A stretch of DNA of 64,000 bases from Nitrosarchaeum sp. (lineage in GTDB: Archaea > Thermoproteota > Nitrososphaeria > Nitrososphaerales > Nitrosopumilaceae): assembly GCA_021414365.1 (NCBI GenBank), contig JAIOOR010000007.1, forward strand, positions 1 to 64,000, given 5' to 3'. Position 1 is the stretch's first letter; each line of letters opens with the position of its first letter. The notes beneath the pieces were generated by a model. The model was not told the DNA's origin. It searched no databases and saw only the letters and a program-made list of their open reading frames with translations. The position numbers were made by a program, and so were the translations under genes. This document shows, in pieces, positions 25,516-43,116 of this stretch.

Positions 25516-25589
25516 GGGATCGTGGTCTAGCTTGGTATGATTCTGCGTTTGGGACGCAGAGGTCGTGTGTTCAAATCACGCCGATCCCA
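25516..25589 (+). tRNA. tRNA-Pro(TGG)
   Basis: Acceptor GGGATCG/CGATCCC, anticodon stem CTGCG/CGCAG with loop TTTGGGA (anticodon TGG), T arm GTGTG-TTCAAAT-CACGC, discriminator A25589. The next three bases are CCA (25590-25592), so the 3' end may be encoded. No intron. TATA-like CTTAAAT at 25487-25493 is 23-29 bp upstream. Confidence 0.93.
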
Positions 25590-32377: not shown

Positions 32378-32411
32378 AATCCTCTTTTTTGATATTGTAA
32401 TAAAAATATAA

Positions 32412-32576
32412 TTAAATTATAATCGTATTTTCATTTACTATTTTACATGTATGATGCTTTGGAAGTGTCTTTTGTCCACAACTCATGCAAATCTCTTGAA
32501 ATATCAAACGACAATTTTGACATTTTTTATCTACATACAAAGGACTTCCACATCTTCTACAACTTTCATCAGGCAT
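32412..32576 (-). CDS. 54-aa double zinc-ribbon protein (MPDESCR family)
   Basis: ATG 32574-32576 to TAA 32412-32414. Begins MPDESCRRCGSPLYVDKKC; zinc ligands Cys6, 9, 19, 22 (first knuckle) and Cys30, 33, His41/42, Cys44 (second; CMSCGQKTLPKHHTC). It is a clear paralogue of the protein at 43886, including the identical MPDESCR start. It ends 34 nt before the start of the 820-aa exported protein, same strand. Confidence 0.8.
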   Translation of the reverse strand: MPDESCRRCGSPLYVDKKCQNCRLIFQEICMSCGQKTLPKHHTCKIVNENTIII

Positions 32577-32884
32577 ATTGGATATTGTGTGTGATTTAAC
32601 AAAAATAGACTGTCAATAGAATCAATAAAGTACCATGTTCTCCTGTACTATCATACCTCTACGTGATTTATGTTTGATATTGTTTTCCAAGACTTTCAAT
32701 AATTTTTATTTTAATAATGTTTCTCACACTGTTAAGCATTTATTTTTTATTTTGGTCCAAAGAAATAACCTAATCTCTATTGAAAACATACGCTATTCTC
32801 ATAAAATTTGTCTGAATTAATTTTTAATGTGTGCTTCCATTGACCTCACTCTTAATTTTTAATAAGTAAAAAAGGTTTTTCATA
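32577..32884. other. AT-rich intergenic stretch
   Basis: No convincing gene on either strand. A 61-codon plus-strand frame (32635-32820) has atypical composition. The palindrome, TATA box and hairpin locus begin at 32885. Confidence 0.6.
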
Positions 32885-32899
32885 ATTAACAATGTTAAT
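32885..32899. promoter_or_regulatory. Palindromic operator candidate, copy 1
   Basis: ATTAACA-A-TGTTAAT, perfect 15-bp palindrome containing the 13-mer TTAACAATGTTAA, which recurs at 33100. Its centre (32892) is 43 bp before 32935. A TATA-like CCTAAATA (32905-32912) lies between. Confidence 0.6.
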
Positions 32900-32934
32900 C
32901 ATTTCCTAAATACTACTTTCATAAATATGCTGTA

Positions 32935-33087
32935 ATGCAGAAGCACACATATCTACTCCGAGAGAAAAACACAAGAATTCACTCCCATTTCGATTCAACA
33001 CTGAATGGCTTTCATTTACTGCCTGGCTCCGATGTTTTCTCCAGATATGCTTCTGCATTTTTAAATCTCTTTTATGAAATAGTATAG
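32935..33087 (+). ncRNA. Hairpin-forming locus: candidate ncRNA or 50-aa microprotein
   Basis: 32935-33058 folds on itself: ATGCAGAAGC/GCTTCTGCAT (10 bp), ATATCT/AGATAT (6 bp after a 4-nt bulge), GAGAAAAACA/TGTTTTCTC (9 bp, one bulged A), and an apical ATTCA-ACAC-TGAAT. It is GC-richer than its flanks. TATA-like CCTAAATA predicts transcription start at about 32935, the first base of the stem. The same point is an ATG opening a 50-codon frame (MQKHTYLLREKNTRIHSHF...) to TAG 33085-33087, so it could be coding, non-coding or both. Confidence 0.45.
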
Positions 33088-33099
33088 TACAGTCATTAG

Positions 33100-33112
33100 T
33101 TAACAATGTTAA
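33100..33112. promoter_or_regulatory. Palindromic operator candidate, copy 2
   Basis: TTAACA-A-TGTTAA, identical to the core of 32885-32899. Its centre (33106) is 43 bp before the C2H2 gene start at 33149, the same distance as copy 1, with TATA-like TAAAAG at about 33121-33126 in between. Confidence 0.6.
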
Positions 33113-33148
33113 GGAACTACTAAAAGAAATTATTTCTAATATTGTCAT

Positions 33149-33304
33149 ATGGAGTTTACTAAAACCTGCCCCCTATGCAAACAACATTTTCTTTCACTTA
33201 TTACCTATATGTCCCATATCAAGAGTGATCACAATAAAGTTTCTCCAGATATGATCACAAAAGATACTGCTGAATTAAAATGGTCATGGACTAAAAATGA
33301 CTGA
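33149..33304 (+). CDS. 51-aa C2H2 zinc-finger microprotein
   Basis: ATG 33149 to TGA 33302-33304. Begins MEFTKTCPLCKQHFLSLITY and continues MSHIKSDHNK: C-x2-C-x12-H-x4-H (Cys7, Cys10, His23, His28), a classical finger, followed by 23 residues without Cys ending KWSWTKND. Possible DNA or RNA binder. The palindromic operator upstream suggests tight regulation. One of three C2H2 small proteins in the window. Confidence 0.75.
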   Translation: MEFTKTCPLCKQHFLSLITYMSHIKSDHNKVSPDMITKDTAELKWSWTKND

Positions 33305-33628
33305 TTTTGATAATTTATTCTTCATTTAGTGATTAAAAAATGTTCTAAAACACTAAATCTGTGCCTATTTTAATCACAATCATAAAAAAATTTCAAATTT
33401 ATAATTAAATTGTCCATTTTTAATTAAATCTAGATCGTTATGTTGATAACTCAACTTTCAAAATATTATACATATCAAAATAAAATTACAAATACCATCA
33501 TCCTAAAAAAAACAAAAAATTTACAGGTGATTCATTAATTATTATTTTTTTAAAATGAAAAAATAGTTTCCTATTTCTGATCGCTATTGTATATTGCACT
33601 TTTTATATTTGATATTTACAATCTGTTT
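33305..33628. other. AT-rich intergenic stretch with a 10-bp inverted repeat
   Basis: No gene seen. GTGATTAAAA (33329-33338) and TTTTAATCAC (33368-33377) form a perfect 10-bp inverted repeat around a 29-nt loop, 25 nt after the C2H2 gene, suitable as its 3'-end hairpin. The rest is featureless A/T. Confidence 0.5.
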
Positions 33629-33784
33629 ATGAAAAAAGAATTGAAACCTTCAGAGCTTCACATGATGATGAATATGTTAAAAACTGCAATTAATCAAGAT
33701 CGTGAATTTACTGCAGATGAATCAAATAAATTTAATGACTTGTTTGAAACAATACTGGAAAACAAAATTATCCGCAAATTCTAA
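33629..33784 (+). CDS. 51-aa helical protein, unknown function
   Basis: From ATG 33629: MKKELKPSELHMMMNMLKTA then INQDREFTADESNKFNDLFE, two amphipathic helices; no Cys. An upstream in-frame ATG at 33587 would add a hydrophobic segment (YIALFIFDIYNLF) and make it membrane-bound; the shorter form is favoured by its hydrophilic start. No family recognised. Confidence 0.55.
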   Translation: MKKELKPSELHMMMNMLKTAINQDREFTADESNKFNDLFETILENKIIRKF

Positions 33785-33848
33785 ACCATCCTGTTTTTTG
33801 ACACTTTTCCTAAAACCTATATCGTCTTAATTATGAATAAAAAATAAC

Positions 33849-42828: not shown

Positions 42829-43116
42829 TGTGTGTGCTGGGAGTAACCCTCCTTCTGTTTTCACGATATTGCGCTTTGCAGCCTACCTGAACTTGGTACA
42901 GGATCCTAAAGTTCTGTTTGGCTTTGCTCCATGTGGGACGTCTTTTTCATTCCTTCTCTGGAAATCTCAGGTTTTACCATCATCGTGCGCCAGGTTGGAT
43001 TCTTTTCTGCTCCGTTGCCAACCATCTCTGATTATCCATCTCCGGATCACATTTCCTGTATGGAGGGAGGAGTTTCCTCTGCCGTAGCAGCGTGTCGTGC
43101 TCCAGCTCACACATTC
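42829..43116 (-). ncRNA. rnpB: RNase P RNA (archaeal type A)
   Basis: About 288 nt. On the minus strand the P1 stem pairs TGTGTG-AG-CTGG near 43113 with CCAG-CACACA near 42831. Conserved region I reads GAGGAAACTCC (about 43069-43079), and the 3' part has ACAGAAGG followed by GGTTACTCC, the partners that build P4. TATA-like AAATTAAA (43131-43138) predicts a start near 43110. Higher GC than its surroundings. Exact ends are estimated. Confidence 0.88.

Follow-up and report, generated by a model that had tools for sequence, protein, structure and literature searches.

What do two identical palindromes that each stand before a small transcription unit control, and which protein reads them? The question arises in a 64,000-nt stretch of a Nitrosarchaeum contig (the window), where an exact search of the whole length found TTAACAWTGTTAA at 32886-32898, with arms that extend to 15 bp, and again at 33100-33112, and no further copy. 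The preliminary description of this DNA had proposed one regulator for both units, and it was right about the layout: each palindrome centre lies 43 bp before an ATG, and both TATA-like boxes begin 9 nt past their palindromes (Table 1). This shared element and its spacing suggest that a single regulator probably does serve both units.

Table 1. Features of the two-promoter locus and the candidate regulator gene; positions are those of the window unless another contig is named.
Feature	Position	Strand	Basis or detail
Island of about 1.4 kb carrying the ncRNA and C2H2 module	32406-33807		Absent from most close relatives
Palindromic operator 1 (putative)	32885-32899		Core TTAACAATGTTAA at 32886-32898, arms reach 15 bp
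TATA-like box, promoter 1	32906-32912 (CTAAATA); 32907-32912 (TAAATA)	+	Composite pattern across 400 genomes
Structured ncRNA, predicted 5' end about 32934/32935	32934-33060	+	Covariance model, homologues, covariation, indels
ncRNA helix 1, 5' arm ATGCAGAAGCA	32935-32945	+	Pairs with 33048-33058
Conserved CTACTCC segment of ncRNA, mostly unpaired	32953-32959	+	Alignment
ncRNA helix 3, 5' arm GAGAAAA	32962-32968	+	Covarying helix; pairs with 33035-33041 TTTTCTC
Conserved apical ncRNA segment TTTCATTTACTGCC	33010-33023	+	Alignment of copies
ncRNA helix 3, 3' arm TTTTCTC	33035-33041	+	Covariation
ncRNA helix 1, 3' arm TGCTTCTGCAT	33048-33058	+	Pairs with 32935-32945
Palindromic operator 2 (putative)	33100-33112		Exact copy of the 13-mer
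TATA-like box TAAAAG, promoter 2	33121-33126	+	Position relative to operator 2
51-aa C2H2 microprotein gene, predicted leaderless	33149-33304	+	ORF call, weak profile match
Winged-helix (HTH_45, MarR-like) gene, 103 aa	G000:C21:10228-10536		Divergent from a C2H2 gene

Across the Nitrosarchaeum genome that holds the window (G000; 1.88 Mb, 99.9% complete), the exact palindrome occurs eight times, against 0.2-0.6 copies expected under Markov models (P for at least eight copies per genome ≤ 2e-7) and two matches to a reversed-pattern control. Sites with at most one mismatch show no excess as a class in this genome (20, vs. 46 for the control), and thus the enrichment is restricted to the exact palindrome. 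Two one-mismatch sites, at C5:14905 and C21:8807, are placed as functional ones would be; the first (C5:14905-14917) lies between divergent starts, one of which belongs to a longer C2H2-type protein (MKNPFSKKNNCIQCDAKF...).

Palindrome, spacing and TATA position are all conserved in relatives, where the palindrome recurs in clusters. In 66 non-redundant palindrome sites, counted as 132 sides, ATG triplets peak at +35 (25), +36 (22) and +37 (9), compared with about three per position elsewhere, and in 60 of 62 promoters a T at position 9 past the palindrome opens an A/T-rich TATA-like box. Of 400 genomes of the order, 39 contain the composite TTAACWNWGTTAA-N7-CTAAATA, with 64 occurrences among the matches listed, while its reversed control had none in the same 400 genomes. 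The palindrome thus sits directly 5' of the BRE/TATA at a fixed spacing, as an upstream activator site would, and the distance from box to start would be compatible with a leaderless archaeal promoter. At four loci (L125:6885, L128:9318, L141:6362 and L146:3890) one palindrome serves divergent units whose starts lie about 36 nt to either side, which is expected of a symmetric dimer site. Judged by its sequence context, the palindrome is a shared promoter element with rigid spacing that has been kept across genera.

At some sites (L118:9701 on the + side, L123:6427, L128:9673, L133:5104 on the - side, and L141:6716) palindrome and TATA are followed by short frames only, possibly marking a second ncRNA or a short-leader transcript in the cluster. 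Single-palindrome sites in other genera (L124, L127, L148, L090, L092, L097-L099 and L152) were set aside as non-regulatory, because they have no start at 35-37 and adjoin a sequence readable as a conserved protein C-terminus, '..LTPGMEIKGSK'. At L124:2206, L127:2152, L148:2072, L097:1501 and L099:1501 the 13-mer lies beside a conserved GGAATGGAAATAAAGGGGT element, which can be read as the C-terminus TPGMEIKGSK and is probably coding rather than regulatory. The promoter pattern found no match in viral contigs, and two RNA-pattern matches there were rejected as chance, since both the palindrome and the 3' arm are absent.

The two units behind these promoters differ in kind. The preliminary description had treated 32935 as a start point and the unit after it as a hairpin-forming locus; the hairpin locus stands, and belongs to a family of structured ncRNAs, but its ATG is not a start codon. 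The frame at 32935 is broken in homologues by a 2-nt deletion (G001, G014) or a 1-nt insertion (G013), and frame lengths vary, ruling out a protein-coding reading of 32935-33087. From these comparisons the unit is a structured ncRNA and not an ORF, and its ATG is likely the RNA 5' end. A covariance model matched 14 of 121 relatives and then 27 of 250 genomes of the family. Matches in G220 and G298 were rejected, as palindrome and conserved motifs are both absent, leaving 27 copies in 25 Nitrosopumilaceae genomes from three genera. All 27 carry the palindrome (23 exactly, four with one mismatch), 35-37 nt before the ATGCAG that marks the predicted 5' end. The Nitrosarchaeum genome has three copies with common sequence and promoter (the window copy at 32934-33059, C5:9110-9229 and C15:100650-100769).

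Support for the fold comes mainly from the inner helix 3, which reads GAGAAAA/UUUUCUC in the window copy and GGGAAAA/UUUUCCC or GGAAAUAU/AUAUUUCC in others, and which accounts for 7 of 10 pairs with changes on both sides. Over the 27 sequences we counted 48 both-side compensatory cells vs. 17.7 in shuffled and at most 21 in slid controls, in an alignment that was fitted to the model. The closing helix 1 (AUGCAGAAGCA/UGCUUCUGCAU) is paired in 98% of cells, and is too nearly invariant to weigh for or against the structure. Two further segments are conserved, the mostly unpaired CUACUCC and the apical UUUCAUUUACUGCC. The predicted RNA is about 125 nt long and restricted to some Nitrosopumilaceae; Rfam has no family that matches it at or above the gathering threshold. 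Elsewhere in the window, Rfam models mark an archaeal RNase P RNA (42832-43110, -) and tRNAs (25516-25589, + and 2621-2695, +).

Both units lie on an island. At loci L016-L029 the two flanks align, the interval is missing and the flanking genes are adjacent, and the syntenic loci of named Nitrosarchaeum genomes, which hold the closest named relatives of a flanking protein, lack the whole module. In G008 (L138) the same insertion place holds the ncRNA and no C2H2 gene; promoter and RNA therefore move as one unit. The ncRNA family is, as far as its homologues indicate, linked to the promoter element. A 54-aa zinc-ribbon-like protein (32412-32576, -) is a further product of the island, which is strain-specific and set between two conserved genes.

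The second unit is the C2H2 microprotein gene, with its predicted start at 33149. Its product has a weak zf-C2H2_4 match, below cutoff in a profile search, and its relatives in G020 (47% identity) and G094 have the same palindrome at 35 nt. The 'two-gene module' of the preliminary description proved too small, as the palindrome appears to define a multi-gene regulon larger than this pair. Besides the ncRNA and a winged-helix gene, the recurrent targets comprise three types of C2H2 microprotein, DUF1059 proteins (PF06348), small basic peptides ending in ...RRKF, a membrane protein and a protein of about 148 aa without a Pfam match. A membrane cupredoxin-like protein is also among them (PF13473 at 25.5 bits, slightly below the cutoff of 27), and possibly a MoxR ATPase in the Nitrosarchaeum genome and G004. 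Cupredoxin and zinc microproteins together hint at a metal or redox signal.

We next consider the winged-helix gene, which in the Nitrosarchaeum genome shares a palindrome with a divergent C2H2 gene. Its divergent partners in genera g17, g20 and g42 are other small genes, which encode DUF1059 proteins in g20 and g42, with a palindrome of at most one mismatch in between. In families f2 and f8 a palindrome likewise precedes the winged-helix gene (an exact copy in G053, TTAACTATGTTAA in G141). Altogether such sites adjoin winged-helix genes in genera g1, g4, g12, g17, g20 and g42 and in families f2 and f8; the relatives at L167-L169, L171, L172, L174, L175, L179 and L182 have no palindrome nearby. 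A relative with at least 57% identity is found in 15 of 16 genomes that have two or more exact sites and in 0 of 13 others, a comparison of 29 phylogenetically dependent genomes from three genera in which the gene travels with its cluster, so that co-occurrence alone cannot single it out. G017, a fragmented assembly (85% complete), has sites and ncRNA and no winged-helix match. Beside the winged-helix cluster of the Nitrosarchaeum genome, L118:8276-8701 (-) encodes a 141-aa Prok-JAB (JAMM-like) protein.

The protein itself matches HTH_45 (PF14947; E 7.7e-6, 26.3 bits, cutoff 25.5) and falls short of the MarR cutoff (PF01047; 20.4 bits, cutoff 24.6). Conservation is high in the second of its helix-turn-helix segments, GLNxxKHKxIL. 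The AlphaFold model (pLDDT 86, pTM 0.76) has the winged-helix fold with flanking dimerisation helices. Its best fold matches in the PDB are MarR proteins (E 2.6e-4, TM 0.5-0.66, identity about 13-23%), led by the HpaR-DNA and AbfR-DNA complexes. Linkage and co-occurrence thus tie this gene to the palindrome, and it is the best candidate for the regulator, ahead of the C2H2 protein, because the palindrome is common to the gene and its divergent neighbour even in other families.

Taken together, we consider it probable that a dimeric activator, most likely this winged-helix protein, acts at both palindromes, which would yield the ncRNA and the leaderless C2H2 mRNA. Each palindrome would be the binding site of the dimer, directly upstream of the BRE/TATA, with transcription starting at or beside the base where the ATG begins; operator 1 would drive the ncRNA, and operator 2 the mRNA of the microprotein. 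The winged-helix protein would activate the regulon and regulate itself from its own divergent promoter. Binding and activation by this protein, the transcription starts, the sensed signal and the role of the ncRNA are what we infer from these patterns.

The same regulon could instead be governed by a repressor, or its palindrome read by a different regulator or an alternative TFB. MarR-type proteins often act as repressors, and several TFBs are present in many archaea; a MarR-like repressor could also occupy a position upstream of TATA. Still, a symmetric site common to divergent promoters fits a dimer better than a TFB, and it is the winged-helix gene that recurs next to the site across families. 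The site also stops 8 bp short of the TATA-like box and does not cover the TATA or start, and we favor activation because just upstream of the BRE/TATA is where Tgr/TrmBL1 activate (PMC4158304). We therefore regard this alternative as somewhat unlikely.

It is distinctly improbable that the C2H2 microprotein is the factor that binds the palindrome, governing its own gene as well as the upstream RNA. Its gene adjoins both sites and carries the C2H2 signature, and two more small C2H2 genes have the palindrome. However, the protein is rare (4 of 61 genomes), many genomes with sites and ncRNA lack it, and a 13-bp palindrome is long for a single finger. Moreover, in other families no C2H2 gene of the cluster was observed, yet the site adjoins the winged-helix gene. 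The microprotein is likely a target of the promoter and not its binder. That the palindromes are chance matches, as one 13-mer might be in AT-rich DNA, or functionless remnants of a duplicated or mobile unit, as the island missing from relatives and the three ncRNA copies could suggest, is highly improbable, given that site, TATA and spacing are kept before unrelated genes across genera, with no match in the control.

The activation by the winged-helix protein that we favor has a partial parallel in the Thermococcales glycolytic motif TGM (TATCAC-N5-GTGATA), a palindromic operator of several promoters that is bound by Tgr/TrmBL1, with activation from sites upstream of the BRE/TATA (reviewed in PMC4158304). 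The operator described here is likewise common to several promoters and upstream of the BRE/TATA, but it belongs to a different lineage, its sequence (TTAACAWTGTTAA) is not the TGM motif, its targets are microproteins and an ncRNA, and the candidate regulator is a winged-helix protein of about 100 aa without the TrmB effector domain. Among MarR/HTH_45 regulators, which it resembles in its HTH_45 match above cutoff and predicted MarR-like fold, the candidate is short and low in sequence identity, and is known from sequence and predicted fold. As with archaeal small regulatory RNAs, the ncRNA is predicted to be a short, structured intergenic transcript with its own promoter; unlike them, it has no Rfam family and is limited to some Nitrosopumilaceae.

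Open-licence papers held no description that we could find of such a regulon or sRNA in ammonia-oxidising archaea, where transcriptional control appears little explored. The ncRNA may act in trans, for instance through base pairing with the ribosome-binding or AUGAAA start regions of mRNAs. More tentatively, and with considerable doubt, this would be a new regulon in which a MarR-like activator switches on zinc/copper-type microproteins together with a regulatory RNA that acts in trans via CUACUCC/UUUCAUUUACUGCC. A single motif, its candidate regulator and a new RNA family would be open to joint testing, and the fixed geometry of palindrome, TATA and start would allow starts and regulon members to be predicted accurately from sequence alone.
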